Assembly (NCBI GenBank): GCA_016720345.1
Contig: JADKKV010000003.1
Location: 1 to 64,000 of the forward strand
Reading direction: 5' to 3'
DNA: 64,000 nt
From: Thermomonas sp.
GTDB taxonomy: Bacteria; Pseudomonadota; Gammaproteobacteria; Xanthomonadales; Xanthomonadaceae
In this document: piece by piece, positions 22,325 through 41,465 of the stretch
Layout of the letters: each line of letters begins with the position of its first letter
Position numbering within the stretch: the stretch's first letter is position 1
Program-made: the position numbers and the translations under genes
Notes under the pieces: generated by a model
Told to the model about the DNA's origin: nothing
Database searches by the model: none
Seen by the model: only the letters and a program-made list of their open reading frames with translations

Positions 22325-22349
22325 CACCCGGCAGGCACTTGCCTACGCT
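22321..22349 (+). promoter_or_regulatory. Predicted sigma-70 promoter of precursor gene A1
   Basis: TTGACA at 22321-22326, a 17-base spacer and TACGCT at 22344-22349. The -35 overlaps the cyclase stop codon. The second precursor gene has the same -35 hexamer and spacing, which strengthens both calls. Transcription would begin about 40 bases before the A1 ATG. Confidence 0.6.
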
Positions 22350-22396
22350 GGCATCGACCGGTGCTCTGCCGGGTACAGACTCTGAGGAAGCCTTAC

Positions 22397-22528
22397 ATGA
22401 ACGCAGAAATGAAGCAGGAATACAGTGCGCCTGTGCTGGTGACCTTGGGCTCGGCGGATCAGCTGACCAAGAACGTCAATGTGCTCGGCGGTGGTGATAC
22501 CGTGTTCAGCTCTTTGAATCCGAGCTGA
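22397..22528 (+). CDS. Lasso peptide precursor A1
   Basis: A 43-codon gene with GAGGAAG ribosome site 6-12 bases before the ATG. The leader has the RRE-recognition pattern YSAPVLVTLGSADQLT (Y-x2-P-x-L-x3-G...LT). Thr followed by Lys places the usual Thr at leader position -2, predicting the 18-residue core NVNVLGGGDTVFSSLNPS. Its Asp at core position 9 would close a nine-residue ring with Asn1, and it ends in Ser, the kind of terminal residue phosphorylated by HPr-like kinases in paeninodin-type clusters. The cleavage site and ring are inferred; Gly1 would be more usual than Asn1. Confidence 0.82.
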   Translation: MNAEMKQEYSAPVLVTLGSADQLTKNVNVLGGGDTVFSSLNPS

Positions 22529-22584
22529 TATAGACGAGTCGGTATCCATCGACTCCCGCCCGATTCGGTGGTGTTGCAGACGGT

Positions 22585-22616
22585 AAGCCCGCAGCCTGTC
22601 CAGGTGGCGGGCTTTT
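22585..22616 (+). terminator. Rho-independent terminator after A1
   Basis: AAGCCCGC (22585-22592) pairs with GCGGGCTT (22607-22614) across a 14-base loop and runs into TTTT. It lies 57 bases after the A1 stop and before the A2 promoter, so the two precursor genes form separate transcripts. Confidence 0.75.
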
Positions 22617-22643
22617 CAATTTGAAGGAAAGTAAAAATGCCGT

Positions 22644-22672
22644 TTGACAGGCCTTGTTGGTACGCTTAGGCT
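22644..22672 (+). promoter_or_regulatory. Predicted sigma-70 promoter of precursor gene A2
   Basis: Perfect -35 TTGACA at 22644-22649, 17-base spacer, -10 TAGGCT at 22667-22672. It follows the A1 terminator and gives a leader of about 55 bases before the A2 ATG. Confidence 0.65.
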
Positions 22673-22732
22673 GTCGGTATCCGTAACTCGCAAGAGCCGG
22701 ATTGGCATTGGAAATCGGGGGGACAATCGAAC

Positions 22733-22858
22733 ATGGAAATGAAACAGGCCTACAGCGCGCCGGTTCTGGTGACGCTGGGTTCGGCGGAAGAGTTGACCCA
22801 GAACGTGAACACGCCGGGCCCCGGCGATACGGTTTTCTCGGTTCTGGCTCCGAGCTGA
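22733..22858 (+). CDS. Lasso peptide precursor A2
   Basis: A 41-codon paralogue of A1. The leader MEMKQAYSAPVLVTLGSAEE is nearly identical to that of A1 and ends LTQ; the predicted 18-residue core is NVNTPGPGDTVFSVLAPS. Asn1, Val2, Asn3, Gly8, Asp9, the TVFS stretch and the final Pro-Ser are shared with A1, while positions 4-7 in the ring and the tail vary. This points to duplication and divergence of one lasso scaffold. The spaced, conserved Asp9 again fits a nine-residue macrolactam. Own promoter upstream and terminator downstream. Confidence 0.82.
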   Translation: MEMKQAYSAPVLVTLGSAEELTQNVNTPGPGDTVFSVLAPS

Positions 22859-22918
22859 TCCAATCCGGACCAAGGCCTTCGGATCCTGATGGATTTGAAG
22901 GTTGAACGAACAAAGGCT

Positions 22919-22951
22919 CGTTGCCTGTTGCAGGCAACGGGCTGTTTTTTT
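22919..22951 (+). terminator. Rho-independent terminator after A2
   Basis: CGTTGCCTG and CAGGCAACG form a perfect 9-base stem with a TTG loop (22919-22939), followed by GGCTG and seven T. It lies 60 bases after the A2 stop and 24 bases before the B1 gene, which would therefore rely on readthrough or a start inside this gap. Confidence 0.85.
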
Positions 22952-22974
22952 GCTCCGTATCGAGGTGTTTTGCG

Positions 22975-23268
22975 ATGTCTGGAACCGTGGCCTCGATGGA
23001 ACATCGCCGCTTGCGGCGCTCGCCCGACGCGTTGGCGACGCAGGTCGATGGCGACATCATGATGCTGGTCCTCTCGACCGGCATGTACCACAGCCTGAGC
23101 GGCGTGGCCGCCCGGATCTGGGAAGTGCTGGAAACGCCCTCCACGCTGGACGAAATCTCGGCACGCATCGCCGAGGAATATGGCGTTTCGCTGGAACAGT
23201 GCCGTATGGACACGCAGGCATTCCTTGCAGACCTCTCGCGGGCCGGGTTGGTCGACGATTTCGCCTGA
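22975..23268 (+). CDS. PqqD-like precursor-recognition protein (lasso B1)
   Basis: A 97-residue winged-helix RRE protein that binds the leader peptide and hands it to the protease. Typical PqqD features: DGDIMMLVLSTGMYHSLSGV (beta hairpin and wing) followed by AARIWEVLETPSTLDEI and a helical C-terminal half ending LSRAGLVDDF. It lies directly before the B2 protease gene. Intact frame, ATG at 22975. The start context is poor in Shine-Dalgarno bases. Confidence 0.88.
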   Translation: MSGTVASMEHRRLRRSPDALATQVDGDIMMLVLSTGMYHSLSGVAARIWEVLETPSTLDEISARIAEEYGVSLEQCRMDTQAFLADLSRAGLVDDFA

Positions 23269-23284
23269 GCGGTCACGCGTCCGC

Positions 23285-23794
23285 ATGTTGCGTCGCAGGC
23301 AGGCCATCGCCGCAGTAAGGCTGCTGGTGCTCATTGCGCTGGCACCGTTCGTGTTCATTGGGCTTGGCCTGGCGCGCGCCGCCGTGTTGCTGGTGCCTTT
23401 CCCGAGGCTCTCGCGCCGGTTCGGACAGTCGATGGGGGCGGTGGCCCTGGTGCCGCTGGCCACGCCCTCCGATGCACGGACAGCGACGCTGGTCGGTCGG
23501 GTGATCCGGGCGGTGGCGCTGCGCACGCCCTGGGAATCCAATTGCCTGGCCCAGGCGATCCTTGCGCGGGCCTTGCTCGGGCTGCTGCGCGTTCCCTATG
23601 CCTTGCACCTCGGCTTGCGATCCTCGCCGGCTGTCGCCGACGATCCGATCGCTCACGCCTGGGTGGCCTGTGGGCGCGTCTTCGTTACCGGGGGCAACGG
23701 CTTCGCGAACTACGCGGTGGTGGCGGTCTTCGTGCCCACCGGCTGGGTGTCGGACGCGCCAGCCTCCAGCGCGGCGATCAAGGGCTCGAGGTGA
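23285..23794 (+). CDS. Lasso leader peptidase (transglutaminase-like B2)
   Basis: A 169-residue protein whose N-terminus carries a hydrophobic helix (LLVLIALAPFVFIGLGLARA). The catalytic Cys is in WESNCLAQAILARALL and the His in DPIAHAWVACG, the Cys-His pair of lasso B2 cysteine proteases that remove the leader after the Thr-x site. The core domain normally ends just after FANYAVVAVF; the remaining ~20 codons read into DNA that codes the kinase on the opposite strand, giving an 85-base convergent overlap. Confidence 0.85.
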   Translation: MLRRRQAIAAVRLLVLIALAPFVFIGLGLARAAVLLVPFPRLSRRFGQSMGAVALVPLATPSDARTATLVGRVIRAVALRTPWESNCLAQAILARALLGLLRVPYALHLGLRSSPAVADDPIAHAWVACGRVFVTGGNGFANYAVVAVFVPTGWVSDAPASSAAIKGSR

Positions 23795-24696
23795 TGGTCG
23801 TAATCGGCCAGGCTGCGGGGCCGTGAGAACCTGAGCACGGCAATGCTGGCGGCGATGCGCGCGCTGTCCAGGAACAGGCTGCCGGGTTTGCGCCACGCCT
23901 CCGCGAACTCGTGGCGATACACCGACCCCATCACCGTCGCCAATGCGTCGTGTCCGCGCAGGCGGGCAAGCGCGCTCTGGGTGTCGTCGACGGACTCCAG
24001 CAGGACCAGGCCGCGCAGCGGCATCGCGCCGTCGATCATGGGCCCCGATGGCATCTGGAATTTGTCGAAACGCACCAGGTCGCGGACCAGGCCATCCTCC
24101 GGCACCGCCAGCGCCGACAGCGCGTCGCGCCACAGGCGCAGGCGGGGAATCCCGCCGCGCGCATGGACGGCACCGTTGGCGGCGTCGATCACGGTGACGT
24201 CGTCGCTGAGGATCGGCCAGCCGAAGCGCCGATGCAGCCACGCGACCAGGGTCGACTTGCCGGCACCCGAGTGGCCGGTGAACAGCCACGCTCCCGAAGG
24301 CGTTGCCACCCCACTGGCATGCAAGGCGAACAACCCGCGCTGGTGCAGCAGCACGCCGAGCGCGGTGCCAAGCATGTAGACCCGGATCGCATGATCGTCG
24401 CGCGGGTGGCCGGCGCAGGGCTGGAAGCGGATCGTGCGGCCGTCCGCGATCAGGTAACGCGCGATGCCGGGCGCCTCGAACAGGAACCGGGCGGCGTCCG
24501 CCTGCCAATAGGCGCCTGCGCTCGCATTATTGCCGAGCGAGGCGGGGACCCCGCCTTCGCTGATTTCGACATCCGCGCCTTCGCCGTTGTCGCCAGCGGC
24601 GCCGGCAAGATCCGGAAGCGCGATCGATGACGCCACGCGCAGGCCATGCACGAAATAGCGGAGCGCGGGATTCGAAGCGGCGCAATCAGCCTGCAT
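23710..24696 (-). CDS. HPr-kinase-like serine kinase of lasso module 1
   Basis: A 328-residue protein with an N-terminal domain of unknown fold and a C-terminal HPr-kinase-like domain: FALHASGVA, Walker A FTGHSGAGKSTLVAW and WPILSDDVTVID. In paeninodin-type clusters the homologous kinase phosphorylates the C-terminal Ser of the precursor; both module 1 precursors end in Ser, which fits. The start overlaps the exporter stop by 11 bases, so kinase and exporter form one - strand operon facing the rest of the module. Confidence 0.82.
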   Translation of the reverse strand: MQADCAASNPALRYFVHGLRVASSIALPDLAGAAGDNGEGADVEISEGGVPASLGNNASAGAYWQADAARFLFEAPGIARYLIADGRTIRFQPCAGHPRDDHAIRVYMLGTALGVLLHQRGLFALHASGVATPSGAWLFTGHSGAGKSTLVAWLHRRFGWPILSDDVTVIDAANGAVHARGGIPRLRLWRDALSALAVPEDGLVRDLVRFDKFQMPSGPMIDGAMPLRGLVLLESVDDTQSALARLRGHDALATVMGSVYRHEFAEAWRKPGSLFLDSARIAASIAVLRFSRPRSLADYDHHLEPLIAALEAGASDTQPVGTKTATTA

Positions 24697-26527
24697 CGTC
24701 GACCCGCAGGTCCGCGTCGTCGCGGTAGAAATGCGCCTGTTTGTCGAACAGGCCTGCGTAAACGCCTTGCTTCGCCATCAGTTCCTCGTGCGTCCCCGCT
24801 TCGCGGATGACGCCGTCCTCGAGCACGTAGATGCAGTCGGCCTGGCGAATGGTGGACAGCCGATGGCTGATGATCAGCACCGAGCGCGTCTCGATCAATC
24901 GCTTGAAATCGCGGAACAGCTCAAACTCTACCCCGGGATCCAATGCACTGGTGGGTTCGTCCAGGATCAGTACCCGCGACTGCGCGGCGAAGGCGCGTGC
25001 AAGGGCGACGCGCTGCCACTGCCCCTGGCTCAGTTCGACGCCGTCGAACATGCGGCTCAGGTAGGTGTCGTAGCCTTTTTCAAGTTCCTGGATGAAGCCG
25101 TCCGCCTCCGATTTCTCCGCCGCCTGCTGGATCCGCGGCGAGTCCCTGGGGATGCGGATATCGCCGAAGCGTATGTTCTCGCCGGCGGTGTCCGCATAGC
25201 GGGCGAAGTCCTGGAAAATCACGCTGAACGTACGGCGGTATTCGTCCAGCGCGAACTCGCGTACATCGCGGCCGTCGAGGGTGATCCGGCCATGCGTCGG
25301 GTCGTACAGGCGACACAGCAGCTTGATCAGGCTGGTCTTGCCGGAGCCATTGGCGCCGACCAGCGCGATGATCTTGCCGGCGGGTATCTCGAGGTCGATC
25401 CCGTTCAGCACTTCGCGCTCGGTGCCAGGGTAGGTGAAGCCCACGCTTTCCAGTCGCAGGTTCACCGCATCGCTACCGGGAATTGGCGTGGGCACGTCCG
25501 GCGAGGCAAGTACCGGGCGGATGTCCAGGTATTCGAACAGCAGGCCGAGGTAGAGGTTGTCCTCATACAGCTGCGATACCTGCTGGGTCATTTCCTGGCC
25601 CATCGCCTGGGCGCGCTGGAACACCACCAGGAACAGCGCCAGGTCGCCGACGCTGTTGCGGCCATGCGCGGCCTCCAGCGCGAGGTAGCCCAGCGACCCG
25701 AAGAAGATGAGGGTCGCCATCGACATTACCACCGCCTCGGCGCCGGCGCGCTTGCGCCCGATCGCGATCTGCTCGGTCCGGATGGTCTGCCGCAGCACGA
25801 TGTACTGGTCGCGCAGGAACTCACCCAGTGCGCCGGTGCGCATTTCCTTCGCGTGGCTGTCGGAGGTCATCAGCCAGTCGAGGTAGGCAGCGTGCCGCTC
25901 CATCCGGGTGCGTTTGCGACGCCAGTCGTACAGGGTGCGGGTGAAGTAGATGCGCACGATCAATGCGGGGATGATCAGCGCGCCCAGCATCAGCAAGACG
26001 AAGCCGTTGATCGATCCGAGCAGGCCGATGACGCCCGCCAGCAACAGGCAGTTCTTGCCGAGCATCAGCAGGTTCGAGGTGATCTGCGCGGGGCGCTGGC
26101 TGCCGGAGGCGCGTGCACGCTGCAGGGTGTCGAAGTAGCGCGAGCTTTCGAAGAAGGCGAGGTCCAGCCGGATCGAATGCGACTGGATCATGCCGTTGAC
26201 GTGATCCGCCAGGTGCATGCCCTGCGCTTCGCGGGCGAAGCCGGACAGGGTGCGGGCAGCCAGCGAGGCCAGCGCGCAGCCGGCGGTGTAGGCGACGACG
26301 CGGAGCAGGGCGTCTGCCTGCGCATCGCTCCACACCTCGCTGGAAGGCATGGCGGACACGTGGTCGATCAGTTGCTTCACCAGATACAGCGCAGCGAGGC
26401 CGAATGCGATCTCGGCGACCATGGCGATCATGCCGAGGATGGTCCAGCCGCGGGAACTGACCCAGAGCAGGGCCAGGATGCGCCTCGCGGCCACGAAGGG
26501 GGCGAAGACCTTTGTCGCGCCGATCAT
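24686..26527 (-). CDS. ABC exporter (fused permease-ATPase) of lasso module 1
   Basis: A 613-residue half-transporter with six predicted helices in the first ~330 residues (e.g. IVFGLAAL-like stretch [20 protein letters not shown]) and a nucleotide-binding domain: Walker [18 protein letters not shown], signature [17 protein letters not shown], Walker [13 protein letters not shown]. It has no N-terminal peptidase domain, as in lasso D proteins, where B2 does the cleavage. Expected to export the mature peptide and give self-protection. The 194 bases to the epimerase gene hold the divergent promoter region. Confidence 0.88.
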
Positions 26528-26721
26528 GGATGGCCTTGGGTGGATGCAGGCTTCGCTTGCGACTTCGGCGGAATCCTTGCGTAAGCGGGCATGATTGCCG
26601 GGCCGGCTGGTCCGGTCAAGCGGGTTGCCGCGCGCGGCGACGCGCGTTCATCAAACCCGCGAAGCCCGCCCCTGCCACCGGTAGAATCCCCATCCCGATC
26701 GCGCAACGGATACACCCTGCA

Positions 26722-27732
26722 ATGAAAGTCCTGGTCACCGGCACCGCCGGGTTCATTGGTTCGCACGTCGCCCAGGTATTGCTGGCGCGCGGCGACACGG
26801 TCATCGGCTTCGACAGCCTCAACGACTACTACGACGTCACCCTGAAGCAGGCGCGGCTGGCGCGCTTCATCGACCACCCGAACTACATCCACGTGCAGGC
26901 GGACCTGGCGGACCGCGCGGCGGTGGAGCAGGTGTTCGCCCACCACAAGCCGGAGCGGGTGATCAACCTGGCGGCGCAGGCGGGCGTGCGTTACGCGGCG
27001 GAGAACCCGCATGTGTACGTGGCCAGCAACGTCACCGGCTTCCTGCACATCCTGGAGGGCTGCCGCCACCACGGCGTGCAGCACCTGGTGTATGCCTCCA
27101 CCAGTTCGGTGTACGGCGCCAACACCAACATGCCGTTCTCCGAGCACGGCTCGGCCGAGCATCCGCTGACCCTGTACGCGGCCACCAAGAAGGCCAACGA
27201 GCAGATGGCGCACAGCTACGCGCATCTGTACGCCATCCCCACCACCGGCCTGCGCTTCTTCACCGTGTACGGCCCGTGGGGCCGCCCGGACATGGCGCTG
27301 TTCCTGTTCACCCGCGCGATCCTGGACGGCAAGCCGATCCGCGTGTTCAACCACGGCAAGCACAAGCGCAGCTTCACCTACGTGGACGACATCGTGGAAG
27401 GCGTGGTGCGCGCGCTGGACCGGGTGCCCGGCAAGGACCCGGTGTGGAACAGCGCGGCCCCGGACCCGGCCACCAGCGGCGTTGCGCCGTATCGCCTGTA
27501 CAACATCGGCAACGAACAGCCGGTGGAGCTGCTGCGCTACATCGAGGTGCTGGAACAGTGCCTGGGCCGGAAGGCGCAGATGGAGCTGCTGCCGCTGCAG
27601 GCCGGCGACGTGCCGGACACCGAGGCCGATGTCTCCGACCTGATCGCCAACGTGGGCTATCGCCCGCAGGTGCAGGTGGAGGAGGGCGTGGCGAAGTTCG
27701 TGGATTGGTATCGCGGCTACTACGACGCCTGA
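26722..27732 (+). CDS. UDP-glucuronate 4-epimerase
   Basis: An intact 336-residue extended [23 protein letters not shown] (NAD site), [17 protein letters not shown], the catalytic YAATKKANE with upstream TSSVYG, and [14 protein letters not shown]. The AAQAGVRY and GPWGRPDMA stretches are typical of enzymes converting UDP-GlcA to UDP-GalA (LspL/CapI type). It probably serves the capsule or O-antigen locus although it stands between two RiPP modules. TAGAAT at 26689 may be its -10. A second, damaged copy lies at 34785-35415. Confidence 0.88.
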
Positions 27733-28078: not shown

Positions 28079-29224
28079 TCAGTCCATTGCGGCAGTGGAG
28101 GGCTGCGCGCCCGACAAGGCGTCGCCGAGTCGCGATGCGCCGTACAGCGCGAAGGCCGCTGCGACCCGCCACGCCGAACTCGTCCCCGTGCCCAGGATCA
28201 GGCTACGCCGGAATCCCGGCCGGTTGCGCCGTGCGACCGGATGGAGGGGGTAGTCGGGTGGCGCAAGCCAGTCGATGGCGCGCCTGCGCAAGGAATCGAC
28301 ATCGGCTTCAAGGGATGCGGTGCGTGCCGCCAACGACGCAGCTCGTCCAGGCGCCAACGCGTCCAGCGCGAGGCAATGCCGTGCCTGCCTGAGCGACAGG
28401 AACAGAGCGGGCAACAACTGGTGGCGCGCGGCGCGCGAACGCAGCGCCTGCCAGCCCGCGTCGTCAAGATCGTCCACGTACCAGAGCAGGTCGATGTATT
28501 CGCGCAGCGGCCGGTGCATTCCGCTGCGCACCACGTGCAGTGCGATCATGCACACGCAATCCTCGAGGCCCGGCACGCGAATGCCGCTGGCGCGCGCGTC
28601 GGTGCCGAGGATGTCGCGGGTCAGCGAGTTGCACACCGGCGGCTCGGTGACCCGCGCATGCACGTCCAGGTTCTGGTACGCGTTGCCGCTGCCTTTGCAG
28701 GCCATCCATCCCTTGGCCAGTCGGCGGGTCAGCCACGATCCGGGCGAAGCGGAGGCAAAGCCCCTGCGCGCCAGCGCCTCGCGCAAAGCGTTCGCCTGTT
28801 CCTGCGGCACGATCAGGTCGTAATCGGCCAACGCGCGCAATTCGCGCATCAGCGGCCAGCGCGCATGCAGCGCGCCGCCCTTGAACAACACCGGCGCAAT
28901 GCCGTCCTCGGATTCAAGCGATACAAGCAGGCTTGCCAGTGCATTCCAGCGGCTGGTGTTGACCGCGGACAGCTGCATGCCGCGGATCAGGGTGGCGCGA
29001 TCGCTCGCGACGCCCAGGTGCTGGCAGAGATTTGCGTGCATCCCGGCCAGTCCGCTGCGGTCGAGGACGGCTGCAGCCGGTTGCAGCGGCAGATGCGCGG
29101 GATCGCCCGTGCGCAAGGCGAGATAGCAGGCACCCGCCAAGCGGCAGACCGCATCGTCCGTCGCATCACCTGGTGCAGCGGGGCCTTGCGGCACTCCACG
29201 TGATGCATCGCGTCCGTCACGCAT
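28079..29224 (-). CDS. NTP_transf_5-type nucleotidyltransferase of RiPP module 2
   Basis: A 381-residue intact protein. The start is taken at ATG 29224, just after the radical SAM stop; a longer open frame upstream is out-of-frame shadow of that gene. Core motifs: APVLFKGGALHARWPLMREL and ALADYDLIVPQEQANALREA, giving the G-G and paired-Asp positions of the family (here DYD). Then ITALHVVRSGMHRPLREYID-like His-containing helices. Last gene of the module 2 operon, 20 bases after the radical SAM gene. By analogy it modifies the phosphorylated peptide. Confidence 0.8.
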   Translation of the reverse strand: MRDGRDASRGVPQGPAAPGDATDDAVCRLAGACYLALRTGDPAHLPLQPAAAVLDRSGLAGMHANLCQHLGVASDRATLIRGMQLSAVNTSRWNALASLLVSLESEDGIAPVLFKGGALHARWPLMRELRALADYDLIVPQEQANALREALARRGFASASPGSWLTRRLAKGWMACKGSGNAYQNLDVHARVTEPPVCNSLTRDILGTDARASGIRVPGLEDCVCMIALHVVRSGMHRPLREYIDLLWYVDDLDDAGWQALRSRAARHQLLPALFLSLRQARHCLALDALAPGRAASLAARTASLEADVDSLRRRAIDWLAPPDYPLHPVARRNRPGFRRSLILGTGTSSAWRVAAAFALYGASRLGDALSGAQPSTAAMD

Positions 29225-29244
29225 GGCGAGTTCCGCTTGGCGGG

Positions 29245-30333
29245 TCAGGCCACTATCAGCTGTAGCGGGATCTTGCGGCCCTGTTTCTGCTGCAGGTTCC
29301 AGGACGGCACGCCGGTGCGCGCGAAGGACTTCTCGCAATCCTGGATCGACGGGCCGCGCATGTTGCCTTCCAGGTACGCGAGGCCGGGGCAACGGGTGCA
29401 ACTGCTGCCGTGCACGCACGACGAGCAGCCGTGCAGGTCGCTGACGCGGATCGAACGCACGTCGTTGAGCTGCGGCGAGTCCCGCCAGATGTCGATGAAC
29501 GCCTGCTCGCGGACGCTGCCGACCTTGTACGGGAACTGCACGCAGGGGAACACGTCGCCATAGGGCGAGATGTAGCAGGCGGTGTGGCCGGCGCTGCAGG
29601 GCAGGGTCTCGTAGGCCTCCTCCAGCGGCGTTGGGCCGCTGGGGGCGGCCAGCAGGCGTTCGGCCTGGTCGCCGAGCAGCGAGGTGTCGTGCATGATCCC
29701 GGCCAGGCGGCCCGGATCCATGTTCAGGTCGACGATGCCGCGGTCGCCGTCCATCATCGGGGTGATCGTGGCGTCCACCTCGTAGCGGATGCCCATCTCG
29801 TCCGCCAGCGCCTGCACGTCCTTGTAGTGGTCGGCGTTCTGCTTCATCAGCACGTTGGCGAAGATCACCTTGACCCCGGCGTCGCGCAGGAACTGCGCGC
29901 CTTCGATGGTCCGCTTGAACGAACCGGGCAGCTTGGTGATTTCGTCGTGGGTCTCGGCGATGTGCGAGTACAGGCTGATCTGCACTGCCTCGATGCCCAG
30001 CTTGGCGATGCGCTGGGCCTTGGCCGCGCGGATCATCACGCCGTTGGTCTTGAGCTTGACCGAGAACTGCAGCTTGCGCGCGTGCTCGATGATGGTGAAC
30101 AGGTCGGGGCGCATGAAGATCTCGCCACCGCTGACATTGAGGAAGAACACGCCGGCGTGCGCCATCTGGTCGAGCAAGCCCAGGATCTCCGCGGTGCTCA
30201 TCTCGCCATGGTCTTCATGGTCGAGGTAGCAGTGGATGCAGCGCTCGTTGCAACGATAGGTCAGGTCCAGCTGGACGCTGAGCGGGATGCCCAGCTCCAT
30301 CGCGCGCGCGCCCATGTCCTGCATCACGCTCAT
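29245..30333 (-). CDS. Radical SAM/SPASM peptide maturase
   Basis: A 362-residue enzyme with the 4Fe-4S motif TYRCNERCIHCYLDHED (C-x3-C-x2-C) near residue 27, FLNVSGGEIFMRPDLF and LKTNGV, all in the radical SAM barrel. The C-terminal SPASM region has many Cys (LPCSAGHTACYISPYGDVFPC, then CSSCVHGSSCTRCPGLAYLE), able to hold two auxiliary clusters, as in PqqE and sactipeptide maturases. Starts inside the PqqD gene end (ATGA). With the PqqD protein and a Cys-containing precursor, a thioether, C-C or other cross-link is possible; the chemistry is not readable from sequence. Confidence 0.88.
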   Translation of the reverse strand: MSVMQDMGARAMELGIPLSVQLDLTYRCNERCIHCYLDHEDHGEMSTAEILGLLDQMAHAGVFFLNVSGGEIFMRPDLFTIIEHARKLQFSVKLKTNGVMIRAAKAQRIAKLGIEAVQISLYSHIAETHDEITKLPGSFKRTIEGAQFLRDAGVKVIFANVLMKQNADHYKDVQALADEMGIRYEVDATITPMMDGDRGIVDLNMDPGRLAGIMHDTSLLGDQAERLLAAPSGPTPLEEAYETLPCSAGHTACYISPYGDVFPCVQFPYKVGSVREQAFIDIWRDSPQLNDVRSIRVSDLHGCSSCVHGSSCTRCPGLAYLEGNMRGPSIQDCEKSFARTGVPSWNLQQKQGRKIPLQLIVA

Positions 30334-30641
30334 GTCGCGGCCGATCCCGTGTCGAACGGTTGCTGGGCGACCTGCAGGATGCCACGTTCGGCCAGGCCGT
30401 GGGCCAGTTCGGCGGCATCGCGCAATGCGGTTTCGGCATCGATGTCGAACGCGGGGCAGATGTCGCGCGCAACGATCTCCGCGAGCGTGGTCTTGCCGTC
30501 CGCGGCCCCCCAGAGCATGGCGGCGGTCTCGTTGAGGCTGAACAACGCGGAATCCGACGCCGACATGATCATCAGCTCGTCGCCGATCTGGCGTGCGGCC
30601 ACGTTGGCCTCGGCGGAGGATGTAGAGGGGTCGCTACTCAT
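30330..30641 (-). CDS. PqqD-like peptide chaperone of module 2
   Basis: A 103-residue RRE protein: GDELMIMSASDSALFSLNET (beta hairpin), AAMLWGAADGKTTLAEIVAR and a helical tail ending GLAERGILQVAQ. It should bind the precursor leader and present it to the radical SAM enzyme, as PqqD does for PqqE. Both ends overlap neighbours by four bases (ATGA at 30638-30641 and at 30330-30333), so translation is coupled. Confidence 0.87.
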   Translation of the reverse strand: MSSDPSTSSAEANVAARQIGDELMIMSASDSALFSLNETAAMLWGAADGKTTLAEIVARDICPAFDIDAETALRDAAELAHGLAERGILQVAQQPFDTGSAAT

Positions 30642-31489
30642 GCGTCTTTTCCGAACAGGTCCCAGACGCGTGCGTCAGGGTAGAAAGTGAGGCGGCGGAC
30701 CGGTACCCGTGCGGCCAGCGAGATCGCGTTGTCGAAGACTTGCGACGTCAGGGCGCCGTCCTTGGCGAAATACAGGATATTCGACATCAAGGCGCGGACC
30801 GCATCGGCGGGCGACAACGGTTCGATCGGTTTCCCGGGCCCTGCGCCAGCAGGAAGATGCCGGCCAGCGGGGCGCTCATGCTTTCGCCCGGGATGGCCCA
30901 GTTCGCCGGCGAATGGCGTGCCGTGCGCGAAATATTCGCCGCCCTCGCGGCGGATGAAGGACATCTCGTCGGTCAGAAGATGCGCGCCTTCGGGCGCCAG
31001 CCGCGAAATGGTTGTCTTGCCGGCGCCGGAAACGCCGGTGAACACGTAGGCACGGCCGCTCAGCACGACGCTGGACGCGTGCATCAGCATGCCGCCTTCC
31101 CCGGCCAGCGCCACGGTGAGCAGGATGCGCAGGATCGAGTCGAGCGAATAGGGGCTGGGCACCAGTTCGATGCGGCCGCTGCGTGCCCGCGGGTCCCATT
31201 CGACATGGAAGTCGCTGCGGGTGAGCCGCCAGCCGGAGCTCGCGCGTCGCTTCGACGCCATCCTCGAGGCGATTCGCCGTCGTCCTCCACCTCCGCCTCG
31301 TCGGTGATGGCGGGCGGGGGCAGCAAGGTGACGTCCAGCACGTGCGGTGCTTGCGCGCCGGTTTGGATGAAGCCCGCGAAACGCTCCGCCATCATCGCCA
31401 CGAAGGCGTCCGACACCGAGCGCAGGCGCACGCCACATGCCGCCGATGACGATATCCAGGTGTCGCTGGCCGGGCACGACCCCGTTCAC
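30638..31489 (-). CDS. HPr-kinase-like kinase of module 2, frameshifted
   Basis: GTG start at 31489 within a GTGA overlap with the peptidase gene. The N-terminus shifts frame near 31440 (then VRLRSVSDAFVAMMAERFAG) and near 31260. The kinase domain is clear: LMHASSVVLSGRAYVFTGVS leading into Walker A GVSGAGKTTISRL, then LLTDEMSFIRREGGEYFAHG. A disturbed stretch near 30850-30890 may be another indel. About 284 residues. It would phosphorylate the precursor, whose last residue is Ser. Confidence 0.78.
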   Translation of the reverse strand: MNGVVPGQRHLDIVIGGMWRAPALGVGRLRGDDGGAFRGLHPNRRASTARAGRHLAAPARHHRRGGGGGRRRIASRMASKRRASSGWRLTRSDFHVEWDPRARSGRIELVPSPYSLDSILRILLTVALAGEGGMLMHASSVVLSGRAYVFTGVSGAGKTTISRLAPEGAHLLTDEMSFIRREGGEYFAHGTPFAGELGHPGRKHERPAGRHLPAGAGPGKPIEPLSPADAVRALMSNILYFAKDGALTSQVFDNAISLAARVPVRRLTFYPDARVWDLFGKDA

Positions 31490-31967
31490 GACACCAGCGC
31501 CGTCAACGCGGGGATCCGATGGAACAGCGCCTGGGTGACAGGTACCCGGCACAGCAGCCAACGCGAGATCCGCTGGTGACGGTTCCAGTGGCGGCCACCG
31601 GGATGCAGATGGCGATGCCCGCGCCGGTGTCGACCAGCCGGCCCATCACGTCGCGTGGGTCCCACGGCGCGTCGTTGGCCGCAGGTGCATCACCGCGGGC
31701 GACGGCGACCCCGGACCGACGGCGACCACGCGGTGCGCCACCAGGCCGCCGTTTCGACGAGCAGCACCACGTCGTTGCGTCGAAGCGTCCGCCGAACAGC
31801 GGTGGAACTCAGCAGGTCCCCGGGGCGATTGCCGGCAGCATGCTGCCGCCGGTTGCCAAGCGCAGCCTGCCGAAGCGCCGCAGGACATCCACTGCCAGCG
31901 CGATGCGCGGGCACTGGAGCTCCGATCGCACGTGCGCGCTCAGGAGTTCTTTTGGTTGGTCCGGCAT
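31486..31967 (-). CDS. S26/S24-type peptidase (signal-peptidase-like) of module 2, frameshifted
   Basis: Assembled from three frames, about 160 residues. The ATG at 31967 gives MPDQPKELLSAHVRSELQCP, then RLATGGSMLPAIAPGDLL, the Ser-x-x-Pro catalytic loop of S24/S26 peptidases. After breaks near 31800 and 31740 it reads RRNGGLVAHRVVAVGPGS (the second conserved block with the HRV motif), NDAPWDPRDVMGRLV and a C-terminus LLCRVPVTQALFHRIPALTA. The general base lysine is not clear. Could remove the leader of the precursor encoded just upstream and overlapping it by 28 bases. Confidence 0.7.
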
Positions 31968-32107
31968 GAATTCTGGGTGGTGCTGACCTTGCCACAGGCA
32001 AGCGCCATGGTTTCGAACACGTGCTCGTGGCGGAATTCCGGCTTGACGTAAGCGCGGCGCTCCGCCCGGGGGGCGCCCGTGGAATCAGGTGCGTGGGATG
32101 CGTGCAT
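31940..32107 (-). CDS. Candidate RiPP precursor of module 2 (Cys-containing, ends in Ser)
   Basis: A 55-residue open frame at the head of the module 2 operon. The N-terminal part carries a leader-like AYVKPEFRHEHVFET (Tyr-x2-Pro, as in many PqqD-bound leaders), the rest is LACGKVSTTQNSCRTNQKNS with two Cys ten residues apart and a C-terminal Ser. Its stop lies inside the peptidase gene, so the two are translationally linked. The ribosome site is weak. I do not recognise the sequence as a named family; the call rests on size, position, leader motif and cysteines. Confidence 0.6.
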   Translation of the reverse strand: MHASHAPDSTGAPRAERRAYVKPEFRHEHVFETMALACGKVSTTQNSCRTNQKNS

Positions 32108-32218: not shown

Positions 32219-34581
32219 TCAGTCCAGGGTCGCCTGGCTGGCCTGGATGGCGTTGCCGCCTGCCTGCAGCTGGCTGAAGTAGACCTGCGACGCGCCGGTC
32301 GAGGCACTGGTGTTGTCCACCACGATGCCGCCGGTGCCGCCGGGCGCGGCCAGGCCGGCAGAGGGAACGTTCGTTGTTGCCCAGGTGGCACCGGTGCCCG
32401 CGCCGGCACCATTCAGGTCGGCCAGGTTGCACGTACACGCAGGCGTCGTTGATCGTGCCACTCCCGGTGTTCGGGCCGCAGCCGTCGACGTTCGCATCGG
32501 CGTAGCTTGCCGTGCTGACGAACACGTACTCGTTGCTGCCGTTCTTGATGACGGTGGCAGGCGCGATCTGCTCAGGTTGTCGGTGCCGCTCGCAGCATCG
32601 TCGTCCTCCACGTAACGGTCGCGGTCGCCGAAGGTGTGGCCCTGGACAGGAGTCTGCATCACGCCGCTGATGATCGGGATTTTCCACATGGTGGCGTAGA
32701 ACGTGTTGTCTGGCCGGCCACCCACGATGTACATCGCGCCGGTGCCGTTGTTGCTGTTGTAGAAGGCGTCGTCGAACGCGCCTGCATAGAGCACGCGACT
32801 GACGCCGTTGCCGCGGCCGATGAACTGGCGGCTGCCGATGGTGTCGTTGGCGAAGAACTCCGTGAACTGGATCACGGCGCGACAGCCGTCGGTTTCGCCT
32901 GCGAACGCGTCGCAGCGACCGGCGTCCGTGTAAACGAGGTGTTGTCGTTGTAGACGAAGGTGTAGATCCGGCCGGTGGCACCATCGATGATCGGCGATTC
33001 GCGCACGCCGGGCGTGTCGTCGCGCGTCAACTTTTGCACTGGTGGCCAGCGACCCGTCGAAGCCCTGACCCGGTACAGCTTGCCGCCCACGGTACCGGTG
33101 CCCGCCGAGCTGCCGATGTAGACCTGCCCGTTGTTGGCGACCGGGAGGACATCTGTCCAGGCCTGCCTCCAGCGTCCGCGGGAAGTTGACCACCACCTCT
33201 GCCGGCGTGCCTGGAACACGCCGGTGAACTGTGCAGGCGGCCGTTGCCGTCGCCGACCCTACATACGTCGTTGACATAGTCCACGAACGGCGAGGAGTAG
33301 GTAGGCGTGCTGCCCACGTTGCTGGTGCCGTCCAGGTCATCACGTACATGACGCTGCCGGCACTGCCGCGCTGCGCCGCATAGCCTGCGCCGTTGGCGGC
33401 GATGATCGGAAGGCGTTGCGGGCGCGCCGGCCACGCCCTGGCCCGCGGCCCACTTCAGCAGGACCAGTTGCAGGGTATTGCCGCTGCGCTGGATGAAGGC
33501 GACCTGCTTGCCATCGTCGTAGTAGGACAGCACCGGCGAGGTTTCGACCACATAGCCGGTGCCGGTGTTGTAGGCCCACATCGTATTGGGGGCTTTGGTG
33601 GTACCGCTCCGGTTCCAGCTGCCGTTGAGGCGCCAGCGCCTGGTAGAGCTGGTTGAAGGCGATGATGGTGGGCTGGCCCGGAGTCCCCGACCCATCGGAA
33701 CCTGGCCATAAGCTATTGCCGTCAAAGTTGTCCAACGCCTCGGACATGGCGTTGTTGGGGACGTTGCCAACCGTGTTGGAGTAGACAGTGACCTGCGCGC
33801 CAACAACCTCTGCCCGCAAGCCGGTTTGATGGGACCAGCGGTTGATGGCCTCACCCAGGTTTGTCGCGCGGGTGTTGTCATTCACGCCAGCGGTCCGGAA
33901 GTTCAAACCGGTGTTGTCGGTGGCATGGGAGGTCAGCACAACTCGACGGGGGGCTGTCGCGCCCACGGTCACGGTCCGATTCGCCCCTTGGCCGGGATCG
34001 CCCGTAAAGGAGCGGATAGAGGTTTCCTCAGCGCCGGAGCTGGTGTTGCCCGCTGCATTTGTGGGATAGACCGCGAAATCGTTTGCACAACTGGGTGCGG
34101 CCGTGATGTCGAAGTTGTACTTGGCCGGGAACACCCCCGGCACGCCGCGGCCGCCAAGTCCGTTGACGCCGCCGCCCAGCACGTTGCTCCAGTCGCGGAC
34201 GAGGCTGCCGTCACCAGCTTGAGGGCGGCTTGCGCGGATCGCGATGGCGGTCGCGTCCGCGTGATGCGGTTTCGCCCGACTTGGCCTGCTGGCCCAACGA
34301 CGGGCGCCTTTGCTCGGCCTCGAAACGACGCAGCACGGACGCCACGTAACGCGGATCCCGGTAGCGCTGCTGCAATTCCGCATCGCGGCCCCTGCGCTTC
34401 AATTCGTCCGGCGCCAGCGGCTGCCGGTGGATGACCGCGCGGCTGCTCCAGTCGAGACGGTCGGAATTGGCGCCGCTGCCTGCGTGCCTGCCCCTGGAAT
34501 GCCCGACTGCGCCTGCACGGCGCCGATGCTGATGACGCCAGCCAGCGCAACCAGCGCTTTCTGGAGGTTCGAATGCTTCAT
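32219..34581 (-). CDS. Large secreted repeat protein, probably beta-propeller, function unknown, many frameshifts
   Basis: ATG at 34581 behind AGGGG; the N-terminus KHSNLQKALVALAGVISIGA with VQAQ is a Sec signal peptide. Fragments in three frames join into about 780 residues: ELQQRYRDPRYVASVLRRFE, SCANDFAVYPTNAAGN, TIIAFNQLYQ, NTMWAYNTGTGYVVETSPVL, KQVAFIQRSGNTLQLVLLKW, STPTYSSPFVDYVNDV, GQVYIGSSAGTGTVGGKLYR and NNGTGAMYIVGGRPDNTFYA. The recurring V-Y-V-G-x-G-x-G-x-L pattern is like blades of a propeller. Rich in Gly, Thr, Asn. It lies upstream of, and in the same direction as, the module 2 operon. No function assigned. Confidence 0.6.
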
Positions 34582-34784: not shown

Positions 34785-35415
34785 GGCGGCGCAGGCGGGC
34801 GTGCGTTACGCGGCGGAGAACCCGCATGTGTACGTGGCCAGCAACGTCACCGGTTTCCTGCATCCCGGAGGCTGCCGCCTGGGTGCAGCACCTGGTCTAT
34901 GCCTCGACCAGCTCGGTGTACGGCGCCAACACCGCGATGCCGTTCTCCGAACATGTCTCGGCCGAGCATCCGCTGACCCTGTACGCGGCCACCAAGAAGG
35001 CCAACGAACAGATGGCGCACAGCTACGCGCACCTGTACGCCATCCCGACCACCGGCCTGCGCTTCTTCACCGTGTACGGCCCGTGGGGCCGCCCGGACAT
35101 GGCCCTGTTCCTGTTCACCCGCGCGATCCTGGACGGCAAGCCGATCCGCGTGTTCAACCACGGCAAGCACAAGCGCAGCTTCACCTACTCGGCAACGAGC
35201 AGCAGGTGGAGCTGCTGCGCTACATCGAGGTGCTGGAACAGTGCCTGGGCAGGAAGGCGCAGATGGAGCTGCTGCCGCTGCAGGCCGGCGACGTGCCCGA
35301 TACCGAGGCCGACGTCTCCGACCTGATCGCAAACGTGGGCTATCGCCCGCAGGTGCAGGTGGAAGAGGGCGTGGCGAAGTTCATGGACTGGTATCGCGGG
35401 TATTACGGCGCCTGA
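34785..35415 (+). pseudogene. Damaged second copy of the UDP-glucuronate 4-epimerase gene
   Basis: From 34785 the DNA follows the epimerase gene at 26722-27732 closely (GCGGCGCAGGCGGGCGTGCG and onward) but lacks its first ~250 bases, carries small indels near 34865-34890, and loses 124 bases (equivalent to 27382-27505) at 35190, where TTCACCTAC runs straight into TCGGCAACGAGCAG. Synonymous differences are scattered through it, so it is a diverged paralogue and not the same locus read twice. No functional product is possible. Its end keeps the normal stop and is followed by a nucleotidyltransferase gene. Confidence 0.8.
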
Positions 35416-35476
35416 CCCTCACATCACTGGGGGACTTCGCTTGCGAATCGGTGCCAACGCCTCGAACATCGCAGCC

Positions 35477-36631
35477 ATGACCGGCGATGGATCCAAGCCA
35501 GGCGACGACAACCTGCACGCAGTGCTGGCCGATTGGCTGGTGCAGCGCGAAGGCTGCACGCCTGCGGAGGCCGTGGCGCACCATGGAGCGAACGCGGTGC
35601 TGGCCGCCTGCGAGCACGAGGGAGGGGTCAGCCTGGTACATGCGCGGCTGTCGGAAATGGCGGCGACCGATCCGGTGCCACCGGCGTTGCTGCAGGCGCT
35701 GGCCACGCGTGCGCGCCTGTGTGCGGCGCGCAGCCTGCTGTGCGTGTCAGAGGCTGGCAAGATCGAGCAGGCGCTGGACGCGGCCGGCATTCCGGCGATC
35801 TGGTTGAAGGGCATCGCGCTGGGGCACTGGCTATACCCACGCGCGCACCTGCGCGACATCGCCGACATCGACCTGTTGCTTCCCGACCATGCCACCACCC
35901 TGCGCGCGGCGCAGGTGCTGGCACCGCTGGGCTATGTGCTGCCGAACCCGCACATTGCCGGCGACCTGGTGGTGCACGAACTGCTGGCGTGGTCCGAGCG
36001 TGCGCAACTGGAGCTGGACCTGCACTGGGACCTGAGCAACGGGGCCTTGTTCGCGGGGCGCTTGCCGTGGTCGCACTTGCAGCAAGGTTCGGTCTCGCTG
36101 CCGGTCCTTGGCGAAGGCGCGCGTGGCCTGTCGCCGCCCGATGCATTCCTGCACGCCTGCCTGCATCGCGCCGTCAACACGTTGACCGGACGCGGGGATC
36201 GCCTGCGCTGGTTGTACGACATCCACCTGCTGGCGTCGGGTTTCGACCCGGAGGCCTGGCGCCAACTGCTGCGCAGCGCACGACAGGCACGCCTTGCCGA
36301 TGCCTGCGCCTCTGCGCTGCAGGCCAGCCAGCGCACGTTCGGCACGCCGGTGCCGGCGACGCTCATGCCCGCCTTCGAGGCGGCCGCGGCAGGCGAGCCG
36401 ATCCGCACGGAACGCTTGCGCAACTGGTCGTATTTCCAGCGCGCCTGTTGGCAGCGCCTGCCGGACCTTCGCAGCCGCCTGCGCTGGCTGCGGCAGCTGT
36501 TGTTCCCGGACCTTGCGCATTTGCGCGTGCGCTATGCGGAGGATGGCGCGGGGCACGCACGCATCCTGCTGCGCCGGCTGCGCGATGGGATTGCGCGATG
36601 GCGGGGTTACACGCTGGGGGCACCGCGCTGA
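35477..36631 (+). CDS. NTP_transf_5-type nucleotidyltransferase of lasso module 3
   Basis: An intact 384-residue protein from ATG 35477 (an in-frame TTG at 35441 is possible). Motifs: GIPAIWLKGIALGHWLYPRA, DIADIDLLLPDH (paired Asp) and QLELDLHWDLSNG, in the same order as the paralogues at 19150 and 28079. The C-terminus is Arg-rich and helical. Its stop overlaps the ATG of a cyclase-like gene as TGATG, exactly as in module 1, suggesting that it once headed a module 1-type operon. Confidence 0.82.
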   Translation: MTGDGSKPGDDNLHAVLADWLVQREGCTPAEAVAHHGANAVLAACEHEGGVSLVHARLSEMAATDPVPPALLQALATRARLCAARSLLCVSEAGKIEQALDAAGIPAIWLKGIALGHWLYPRAHLRDIADIDLLLPDHATTLRAAQVLAPLGYVLPNPHIAGDLVVHELLAWSERAQLELDLHWDLSNGALFAGRLPWSHLQQGSVSLPVLGEGARGLSPPDAFLHACLHRAVNTLTGRGDRLRWLYDIHLLASGFDPEAWRQLLRSARQARLADACASALQASQRTFGTPVPATLMPAFEAAAAGEPIRTERLRNWSYFQRACWQRLPDLRSRLRWLRQLLFPDLAHLRVRYAEDGAGHARILLRRLRDGIARWRGYTLGAPR

Positions 36632-36850
36632 TGGCGGCGATTTCCGGCGTCCTGCGATTCGATGGTTCTCCCGTGGCGGGCGAACTGGTGCGGCGCATCG
36701 CCGGTCGCATGGTTCATCGCGGCTCCGATGGGGCCCGGGTCGATCATGCAGGTGCGCTTGCACTTGCCTCGTGGGCGCTGCATGCCTCGCTTTACTCCGC
36801 GAAGGATGTGCAGCCCGCCATATTGCCGGCGGGCGGGTTGCTGGTGGTGA
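36631..36850 (+). pseudogene. 5' remnant of a lasso cyclase gene
   Basis: ATG 36631 gives MAAISGVLRFDGSPVAGEL, VHRGSDGARVDHAGALAL and LPAGGLLVVN, the N-terminal region of a lasso cyclase without Cys2. Homology stops near 36850, where a methyltransferase gene on the opposite strand ends equally abruptly. The open frame continues only as shadow of that gene. A rearrangement or a chimeric join removed the rest of the cyclase. Confidence 0.7.
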
Positions 36851-37494
36851 ATCGAGGCTTCGGACAGGCCGTAGTCGACGACACCCCAACAGCGTGGGGT
36901 GCCCAGCAGGCGATCGGTGGGGATCGGGGCGCCGTCGGCCCGCCACCAATGGTTGACGACGAACGGGAGCGCAGCCGACAGGTCGATCCCGTAGGCGTTG
37001 CCGCACCACGGCGATTCGACTTTCCGGTACTCGTGCGGAGCGTGCGCCGGCGCCACGTGCAGCACGTCGCGTGCCGGGATCATGCGTCCACCCGGCTTGA
37101 GGTGCCGTTTGCGCGCGTCCGCCATCGATTCGATGTTGCCCTTGAAGAACGGCAAGGTGCCGTGCAGGTCGCCGACCACCACGTCGACGGGCTCGGGCAG
37201 GTCGAGGGCGGTGGTGAGTCCCTGCAGCCAGGTGATGCGGTCGCTGCCGGGGACGTCCGCCGCGCAGGGTCTTGCGACCTCGAGCGCAATCGCATTCGCT
37301 TCCGCCGCTTACGCGCGCGCGGCCCCGAACTGGCAGGCGAGGAAGGCGAAGATGCCGGTGCCGGTGCCGATGTCCAGCACCACGCTGCCCTCGCCAATGG
37401 CCTGGCGCTGCGCACTAACGAACGGACCGGTGCAGCGGGCGTTGTCGGTCATCCGGGTGTACGCGATCGCCGAATAGTCGTCGTAGTTCGCCAT
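36850..37494 (-). CDS. SAM-dependent methyltransferase (PRMT-like) in lasso module 3, C-terminus missing, frameshifted
   Basis: ATG 37494 begins ANYDDYSAIAYTRMTDNARC, then motif I SVVLDIGTGTGIFAFLACQF, followed after frame breaks near 37310-37190 by VVVGDLHGTLPFFKGNI and LKPGGRMIPARDVLHVAPAH. The DIGTGTGIF and double-E-loop-like region recall arginine methyltransferases and related RiPP O-methyltransferases. It starts four bases after the kinase stop, in one - strand operon. It is cut off near 36850. Possible target: the module 3 peptide (inference). Confidence 0.65.
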
Positions 37495-37498
37495 GGCG

Positions 37499-38459
37499 TC
37501 AGCGTGAGAGGTTGGCCAGGTGGATGGCCAGCGCGTCGAGCAAGGCATCCTTGTGCTCGAAATCGCGCGGGTAGTCCAGCAGGAAGGCCGGAACCTGGTT
37601 GGCGATGCGGCTGCACTGTGCGAGCTGCCGGGTGCTGGCCACGCGGTCGCCCAGGTCGAGGCGGAACGAGTGTCGGATCAGCGCGAGGCAGGCCTCGGCG
37701 GGGCGCAATGCGCGGATCAGCACGGTCTCGCCCGCTTCCCGCGGGTCGCCCAGCACATAGAGCGCGTCGACGCCGTGCCATGTGCCGGGGCTGGCCGCCA
37801 TTGGCACCCGTCGCTTCGCCGAATACCCCGCCACCGGTCCGGTGGCAGTGACCGCGGGCAGTGCAACCCCGAGGCTGTCCGGATACAGGCGCAGGCTTGG
37901 ATAGGTCGGTGCGACCCGCGGCATCCCCTGCGCGGCATCCAGCAGCACGCAATCGTCGGAGAGCACGCGATGCCCCCGCGCGCGTGCAGCAGGGCGGCTA
38001 GGGTGGATTTCCCGTAACCGCTCGGCGCCAGGAACAGGGCGACGCACCCGGCGATGGCCACCGCGCTTGCGTGGACGAGCAAATCGCCCCGCTGCGCCAG
38101 CAGGCGCGGTAATACCTGGTCGACCAACAGGTGTTCCAGCGTGGCCGGGTCCGCCAGGCCTGCATCAGCTGCCATCAGGCACCGCGCCTCGCCGGGCTCG
38201 AGCAGGAAATCGGCGATCCCGGGCGCGCGCAGCCAATAGGCAGGCCCGGCGTGCGCGAGCGAGAGGACGATCTCGCTACCGTCCCGCCAGTGGTGCGTCC
38301 AGTTGCTGTCGATGGCCGCCGAGGTCGGGTGCCAATCCAGGCGGAGTACCGGGGCTATGGTGTCGCAGGCAGCGGCTGCTGGCGCGGCCAGTGCCAGCGG
38401 CGAGTCCAGAACGAAAGGCCCGAACCAGTACCTGGCCGGGCCGCTGAACGCAGGTCCAC
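37499..38459 (-). CDS. HPr-kinase-like kinase of lasso module 3, frameshifted
   Basis: Likely GTG start at 38459, 25 bases after the precursor stop; a shift near 38432 leads to YWFGPFVLDSPLALAAPAAA. Then IVLSLAHAGPAYWLRAPGIA, DLLVHASAVAIAG, Walker A FLAPSGYGKSTLAALLHARG, another shift near 37985, and HRVLSDDCVLLDAAQGMPR. The C-terminal half ends IHLANLSR. About 320 residues, like the module 1 kinase. The module 3 precursor ends in Pro, so the phosphorylated residue, if any, would be an internal Ser/Thr. Confidence 0.75.
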
Positions 38460-38484
38460 GTGGTCTAGATTGCCGACGTTCGAT

Positions 38485-38685: not shown

Positions 38686-38716
38686 GGGAGATGGCCTCTG
38701 CGGTTGTGTGCTTTCG

Positions 38717-38743
38717 ACTCTATCAAGAATCGCCGCCGGTCAA
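38717..38743 (-). promoter_or_regulatory. Weak candidate promoter of precursor A3
   Basis: On the - strand TTGACC (38743-38738) and TAGAGT (38722-38717) are separated by 15 bases, shorter than ideal, in the AT-richer gap between the cyclase stop and the precursor start. By analogy with the two module 1 precursors a dedicated promoter is expected here. Confidence 0.35.
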
Positions 38744-38754
38744 ATGTCCTGGCG

Positions 38755-41132: not shown

Positions 41133-41134
41133 TG

Positions 41135-41428: not shown

Positions 41429-41465
41429 GCTGGCAGCAGGTCGCGGGCGGGGGAATCACAGGGTA

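Follow-up and report, generated by a model that had tools for sequence, protein, structure and literature searches.

We describe here a set of genes transcribed from the minus strand between positions 28079 and 34581 of a 64,000-nucleotide stretch of Thermomonas sp. (GenBank assembly GCA_016720345.1, contig JADKKV010000003.1, positions 1 to 64,000; the whole stretch is hereafter called the window), which resembles a cassette for a ribosomally synthesized and post-translationally modified peptide (RiPP). In the order of transcription it comprises a broken gene for a secreted beta-propeller protein of the PROP4 type (about 32222..34581), directly followed by an open reading frame (ORF) of 55 codons (31940..32107) for a putative precursor peptide with a variable N-terminus, a Y-x2-P leader motif, the stretch VFET-x-ALACGK, a second Cys and a C-terminal Ser. 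Downstream lie a broken gene for an S24/S26-type (signal-peptidase-like) Ser-His protease (about 31489..31967; profile match and frameshift alignment), identified via its relatives, a broken gene for an HprK-like P-loop kinase (about 30638..31489; P-loop and model of a relative's protein), pqqD for a PqqD-family peptide chaperone, or RiPP recognition element (30330..30641; PF05402, E 4e-13), the gene for a radical S-adenosylmethionine (SAM) enzyme with a SPASM domain (29245..30333; PF04055 and PF13186), and that for an NTP_transf_5 nucleotidyltransferase-like protein (28079..29224; PF14907, E 1e-20). The kinase and pqqD genes overlap by 4 bases, as do pqqD and the radical SAM gene, the start region of the S26 gene extends 28 bases into the precursor, and the ATG of the NTP_transf_5 gene follows the radical SAM stop after a gap of 20 bases. 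An initial annotation, made from the sequence of the window alone, had placed the precursor, PqqD, radical SAM/SPASM and NTP_transf_5 genes exactly so, with these overlaps and this gap. Its six-gene operon is real, but two of the members, S26 and kinase, are broken here (about four frameshifts each), and the set begins further upstream, with the propeller gene.

The set recurs well beyond the window. Six short patterns of the radical SAM enzyme, by which members will have been missed, were run against a genome collection of 84,980 species and returned 63 loci (L numbers below; G numbers denote genomes); neighbour counts use the 54 with at least 46% identity, and L057 to L065 were handled as remote. 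The 54 loci span Thermomonas and its kin, Burkholderiales and Acidobacteriota, those nearest to the window being labelled Thermomonas or Lysobacteraceae/Lysobacterales. As the initial annotation had anticipated, the S26, kinase, PqqD and radical SAM genes recur together with small ORFs that carry the VFET...LACGK stretch: precursor, S26, kinase, PqqD and radical SAM genes follow one another on one strand in 43 of the 54 loci, and in five others (L046, L047, L049, L050 and L052) the order is kinase, PqqD, radical SAM, precursor, S26. The six partial cassettes hold kinase, PqqD and radical SAM genes alone (three loci), lack only the precursor (two) or retain the radical SAM gene alone (one), and L009, L014 and L056 among them run into a contig edge. 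With the window included (n = 55), matches numbered 55 for the radical SAM enzyme, 54 each for kinase and PqqD, 51 for S26 and 49 for the precursor, a count that still includes broken copies in L037 and L054. The nucleotidyltransferase, which had likewise been expected to recur with the set, proved common rather than constant, being found within the fetched flanks of at least 29 of the 55 loci and in at least 14 of the 27 with full flanks; these are lower bounds, because the profile missed a copy seen in L045. Complete-looking cassettes occur in Thermomonas flagellata (L005) and Granulicella mallensis (L034). The metagenome-assembled genome UWPOB_THERMO1 carries two cassettes (L003 and L045), each with a radical SAM enzyme 91% identical to that of the window; L003 shows two consecutive propeller genes, the first truncated by the contig edge.

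The small ORF at the head of the enzyme genes belongs to a well-defined family. The precursor alignment has 48 rows, from 45 loci and the window with two copies each for L050 and L052, 47 of them distinct (L003 and L004 being identical); it omits the frameshifted L037 and eight loci without a BLAST precursor match, including L054, where the gene is broken, and L008, where it is truncated by a contig edge and the visible portion ends in Ser. A Tyr and a Pro, an Ala and a Leu, a first Cys, a Lys, a second Cys and the terminal Ser are invariant in all 48 precursors, and Gly follows the first Cys in 46. The distance from the Lys to the second Cys is 7 residues in 43 of the 48, and that from the second Cys to the last Ser is 6 residues in 39. 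Relative to the first Cys, position −3 is always Ala and position −1 is a small residue in 46 sequences (Ala in 23, Ser in 19, Thr in three, Gly in one). The conserved part of the gene appears to be under purifying constraint, with a median ratio of nonsynonymous to synonymous substitution rates (dN/dS) of 0.32; of the 1128 pairs 640 were usable, and among these 88% lay below 0.5 and the maximum was 0.91. Because of this ratio, and because the precursor profile matches the same 5 of 247 genomes as the radical SAM profile, the sequences indicate that the ORF is a true family and not a chance reading frame. Six Acidobacteriota genomes with weak profile matches yielded eight more divergent precursors, seven of the type Y-x2-P...RA-x2-C-x-K...C...S and one of a type proper to L121; all eight ORFs end in Ser, although the matches by which they were found stop at profile position 42–48 of 59. 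Among the ORFs newly located in L110 to L126, 18 of 19 end in Ser, the exception being L117. Three precursors searched against NCBIfam gave no match at E up to 1, whether or not a SynChlorMet precursor model exists there. A lipoprotein reading of the ALAC motif was set aside, since the −3 and −2 residues stand in the wrong order for the lipobox consensus and the precursor lacks any strongly hydrophobic stretch.

Precursor and radical SAM enzyme also keep company at the level of whole genomes. All genome searches scored a limited number of first-look candidates, at most 26, 18, 8 or 5 per genome depending on the search, so the counts are lower bounds. In the 247 genomes of the family, precursor and radical SAM profiles (the latter at E 1e-50) picked out the identical five, all of one genus; G225 and G237, of one contig each, belong to the genus of the window. 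Among 347 Acidobacteriota genomes the precursor profile matched 12, all of which lie within the 66 with a radical SAM match at E 1e-50, and the six strong precursor genomes (E below 1e-15) were exactly the six with a radical SAM score of at least 599 bits, the next score being 301. The corresponding hypergeometric probabilities are 1.4e-10 (5 of 247) and 4e-13 (6 of 347), on the assumption of independent genomes, and the five share one genus. The distance between the two genes is at most a few kb in 8 of the 12 matched Acidobacteriota. Neither the radical SAM enzyme (E 1e-40) nor the precursor (E 0.01) was matched in 72,556 plasmid records. In a tree of 41 radical SAM sequences the Pseudomonadota cassettes group in a single supported clade (100/99) nested within Acidobacteriota, which suggests that the cassette passed from the latter phylum to the former. 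A wider clan of 20 further Acidobacteriota regions has an HprK-like kinase in 16 and PqqD in 17, and in 11 the two lie no more than about 2 kb from the radical SAM gene (region L157 does not include the radical SAM gene); its candidate precursors are of other types. Next to kinase and radical SAM genes in L148, L149, L151 and L152 we observed a small ORF of the form '...W.RPA.EWEE.YEPVV.A.SC...NC...' or near it, with the PqqD match about 4 kb away or more.

The enzymes retain the residues on which their presumed chemistry would depend. Four alignments (A1, A3, A4 and A5, of 36, 17, 32 and 18 rows) were assembled from sequences picked for intact frames and spread. The CX3CX2C motif and seven SPASM Cys of the radical SAM enzyme are invariant in all 32 aligned sequences (Cys 28, 32, 35, 246, 264, 303, 306, 312, 315 and 333), an alignment that excludes interrupted genes such as that of L006. 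Against solved structures its profile matched first SkfB (1e-24) and second PqqE (4e-17), both of which act on peptides; further down the ranking stand 5v1q and 5wgg, which we take to be SuiB and CteB. The enzyme scored below the curated cut-off for each of the 25 families listed out of the 73 that it matched in NCBIfam, for example 150 against 500 for NirJ2 and 143 against 265 for the mycofactocin family. The G-x-S-G-x-G-K and Asp-Glu motifs of the kinase are kept in 18 of 18 rows, and the P-loop is also present in the window protein. A model of the L007 kinase (predicted local distance difference test score, pLDDT, 89.7) matched chains of the phosphoenolpyruvate carboxykinase (PEPCK) type first (template modelling score about 0.5 by query length) and HPr kinase/phosphatase next (about 0.3), so that on the modelled structure the cassette kinase would fall in the PEPCK/HPr-kinase fold. 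In the S26-type protein the Ser of the GxSMxP motif, a His-Arg pair and a Gly-Asp pair do not vary among the 33 aligned relatives, with the Ser-His arrangement found in archaeal or SipW signal peptidases; PF00717, PF10502 and TIGR02228 all scored below cut-off for the L020 protein, and no strong membrane segment was found. For the NTP_transf_5 protein no match to a solved structure appeared at E up to 1. The genome holds three copies of this domain, all within the window, in the cassette and in two neighbouring lasso-like regions.

Most loci also have a propeller or exporter gene in their flanks. Where the upstream sequence exceeds 5 kb (43 loci), a propeller of one of two kinds occurs in 27, an ATP-binding cassette (ABC) exporter pair of the ABC-2 type in 12, and one or the other in 38. 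The PROP4-type propeller, a protein of about 700 residues whose L013 copy has no Pfam or NCBIfam match, precedes the precursor in every Pseudomonadota locus but L008 and L009, which are cut upstream (8 of 10), and occurs in 15 of the 44 Acidobacteriota loci. Its profile aligned in the PDB with designed propellers, a PQQ-like protein and BamB, over short repeat stretches. An AlphaFold model of the L007 protein (mean pLDDT 68; predicted template modelling score 0.71) matched propeller folds, and a BFVD fold search gave generic matches alone, such as tail and repeat proteins. In the divergent branch a different protein with propeller-like repeats is encoded downstream of the precursor, in L050 and L052 as tandem units; the two kinds of propeller aligned by hhalign over only 60 columns (probability 27%, E 7e-4), which makes a shared ancestry no more than possible.

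We observe, then, a conserved gene set, a precursor family with invariant residues, conserved catalytic motifs and co-occurrence across genomes, and the reading that we favour, and hold to be reasonably probable, is that the locus is a RiPP cassette for a radical-cross-linked, Ser-phosphorylated short peptide. In this scheme the stand-alone PqqD protein would read the Y-x2-P leader motif of the precursor, of about 55–60 residues, and present the latter to the enzymes. The radical SAM/SPASM enzyme would cross-link a short core (C-G-K-x6..9-C-x5..8-S), whose start is probably the invariant Cys. The likeliest targets of the enzyme are the Cys and Lys that never vary, and a thioether from one or both Cys is the likeliest product. 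The C-terminal Ser, invariant in the family, would receive a phosphate on its hydroxyl from the HprK-like kinase, and in cassettes that encode it the NTP_transf_5 protein may add a sugar or nucleotide onto this phosphate. The S26-type Ser-His protease, presumably soluble, would detach the leader, perhaps at the junction of A-L-[A/S] and the first Cys, since Ala at −3 and a small residue at −1 would suit a cut of the signal-peptidase type. The product might be exported by the ABC-2 exporter in one branch and act with the co-encoded secreted propeller in the others. According to the available portions of two reports (PMC8498205, PMC9266682), HprK homologues place a phosphate on the C-terminal Ser of a lasso precursor prior to its maturation, and PsmN, annotated as a nucleotidyltransferase, is required for the addition of one or two hexoses to the phosphate, a part for a host enzyme being possible. 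By analogy with those homologues, the invariant terminal Ser is the likeliest target of the cassette kinase, and the fit of this residue to phosphorylation, seen in the window by the initial annotation, extends to all 48 precursors.

The cassette is thus predicted to unite, in a form common to Acidobacteriota and Pseudomonadota, radical SAM cross-linking and C-terminal Ser phosphorylation, and the invariant residues make every step of the pathway directly testable. To our knowledge these two have otherwise been familiar solely as separate logics. A literature search, with most subscription journals outside its coverage, recovered no description that we recognised of this gene combination. By analogy with PQQ and the propeller dehydrogenases, we also put forward, as a speculative extension of doubtful standing, that this is a new RiPP class whose cross-linked, phosphorylated and partly phosphoglycosylated or nucleotidylated peptide might serve as a dedicated ligand or prosthetic partner of the co-secreted propeller. 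Were that the case, the peptide would be bound to an extracellular protein instead of, or besides, killing.

Several points weigh against the reading of a cross-linked and phosphorylated peptide. The reactions, the cut site, the order of the steps and the role of the propeller are all what we infer. The third-ranked solved radical SAM match, cytosylglucuronate decarboxylase, is not a peptide enzyme. An Arg, ill-suited to a signal-peptidase-like cut, precedes the first Cys in 2 of the 48 precursors. The precursor is missing despite adequate flanks in L031, L039 and L053 and broken in L037 (frameshifted) and L054, and the radical SAM gene is interrupted in L006 (Thermomonas beijingensis), L051 and L053. 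Precursor and radical SAM genes lie more than 10 kb apart in G355 and G432 and on separate contigs in G510 and G528. The candidate precursors of L148, L149, L152 and L163 in the wider clan lack a terminal Ser, so that the target proposed for the kinase may not hold throughout. Finally, the window itself accounts for 19 frameshifts, 4 in the S26 gene, 4 in the kinase gene and 11 in the propeller gene. On two of these subjects we made further observations: the radical SAM gene of genome G212 has an extra TGA, and in G528 one contig holds the precursor with an ABC-2 exporter (L119) and another the kinase, PqqD and radical SAM genes (L166), from which it follows that the cassette can be split.

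These frameshifts bear most directly on the possibility that the cassette of the window is a decaying pseudo-operon without a product, which we rate at little short of an even chance and which is compatible with a cross-linked, phosphorylated peptide in the relatives. Frameshift-aware alignment to intact relatives, applied to the precursor, S26, kinase, PqqD, radical SAM and propeller genes, gave 0, 0 and 0 frameshifts for S26, kinase and propeller in the control locus L127 and 0, 0 and 1 in L110; the S26 alignment of the window is weak (67 of 153 residues identical). The rpoB and rpoC genes of the window genome (a 2.66 Mb assembly of 7 contigs) are open over their full length, and decayed precursors in L037 and L054 show that such loss occurs. 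On the other side, the precursor, PqqD and radical SAM genes of the window have no frameshift, no in-frame stop was seen in the aligned frames of the broken genes, the propeller is 69% identical (523 of 759) to the L045 copy, and a local fault of sequencing or assembly would give the same picture. With rpoB and rpoC open, decay at the locus and a locally poor assembly are both possible, and the cassette may be non-functional in this genome.

It is unlikely, in our judgement, that the locus is a divergent SynChlorMet cassette (NCBIfam TIGR04248–TIGR04251) that differs in detail alone. The kinship is visible, since the kinases of the window, L020 and L121 all match ScmC best and that of L124 matches it second best, the PqqD proteins of L020 and L124 have ScmD as their first and second match, respectively, and the remote locus L057 (Omnitrophota) groups PqqD, a small Cys-rich ORF, radical SAM genes, a kinase and NTP_transf_5. 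However, among the window proteins only the kinase has its Scm model on top, ScmD and ScmE being found lower among the matches. ScmC reached 30.5 bits with the window kinase (its open C-terminal portion) and 47.8 with that of L020 against a cut-off of 125, ScmD 18.5 and 25.1 against 100, ScmE 101.7 and 100.4 against 400, and ScmF 78 against 400. A search for a true SynChlorMet locus found no score over cut-off in 7 genomes or in 14 controls, and a literature search for the name found no paper. The claim that the gene combination was new thus stands in part: no description turned up in the literature covered, but the trio of kinase, PqqD and radical SAM/SPASM enzyme is not wholly new, because NCBIfam names such a set.

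Still less probable is that the radical SAM enzyme acts mainly on the secreted propeller, with the small ORF as an adaptor or chaperone and not the product. The presence of a propeller, of either kind, in 27 of the 43 loci whose upstream sequence exceeds 5 kb would fit this, as would the tandem precursor-propeller units of L050 and L052 and the orphan precursors L114 and L115, which adjoin a propeller, the full cassettes of their genomes (L038 and L055) showing none. Nonetheless, precursor and maturases are retained in the branch with the ABC exporter, mostly with no propeller nearby (exceptions L016, L118 and L120), the orphan precursor L113 has none in 17 kb, and the small protein combines a leader like that of RiPPs with Cys and a terminal Ser that are invariant.

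That the small ORF is a lasso precursor matured in trans by a neighbouring cyclase, the radical SAM enzyme being a tailoring enzyme, we regard as highly improbable and reject: cyclase-like genes do lie at 20555–22324 (5.8 kb off one end of the six-gene operon) and 38755–40653 (6.6 kb off the other), phosphorylated lasso clusters also have kinase, PqqD and nucleotidyltransferase, and Y-x2-P occurs in the lasso-type precursors at 22361–22528 and 22733–22858, but a cyclase was present in only 1 of the 27 relatives' loci flanked on each side by 9 kb or more (flanks, not whole genomes, being searched), and an Asp or Glu stands at position 7–9 from the Cys or the next Gly in only 7 of 48 precursors. 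The absence of a lasso cyclase from the cassette, remarked on in the initial annotation, is accordingly upheld; the cyclases of the window sit in separate neighbouring clusters alone.

The neighbourhood of the cassette holds other features. A lasso-type cluster at 19150–26527 comprises an NTP_transf_5 protein with a glutaminase domain, a lasso cyclase in a second frame, an HprK-like kinase, an ABC transporter and the two lasso-type precursors just mentioned, both Ser-terminated. The lasso-like region at 35441–43145 contains an NTP_transf_5 gene (35441–36631), the gene of an asparagine-synthase protein (38755–40653, minus strand) and the membrane part of an ABC transporter (41223–43145). A sugar-nucleotide epimerase gene (26512–27732) and a partial copy (about 34785–35422), some 94% identical over 646 columns, flank the cassette as direct repeats; an epimerase also occurs near the cassettes of L110, L045 and L005.

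Among known systems, the cassette is close to the phosphorylated and phosphoglycosylated lasso peptides paeninodin and pseudomycoidin, with which it would share an HprK-like kinase, a C-terminal Ser, a PqqD-like B1 protein and a nucleotidyltransferase partner, on the assumption that PsmN belongs to NTP_transf_5. Unlike those clusters it has no lasso cyclase and mostly no acidic ring residue, and it has a radical SAM enzyme and an S26-type protease, the latter in the place of the B2 protease. With sactipeptides and ranthipeptides (maturases SkfB, AlbA and CteB) it has in common a SPASM-type maturase, of which SkfB is the nearest solved structure, and a small Cys-bearing precursor, the thioether being a prediction here; it differs in its separate PqqD gene, its kinase and the lack of a matching named family. 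The pyrroloquinoline quinone (PQQ) pathway (PqqA, PqqD and PqqE) also combines a small precursor, a stand-alone PqqD and a PqqE-like radical SAM enzyme, whereas our enzyme reached 103 of the 381 bits of the PqqE cut-off and the cassette has a kinase and a C-terminal Ser. Finally, SynChlorMet names as one set an HprK-like kinase, a PqqD-like protein and radical SAM/SPASM enzymes, from which the cassette differs in scores far below the cut-offs, in one radical SAM enzyme against two named models, and in an added S26-type protease, often with a propeller or ABC-2 exporter. The conserved RiPP-like cassette is real, and the kinase, PqqD and radical SAM set that NCBIfam calls SynChlorMet is its distant relative.

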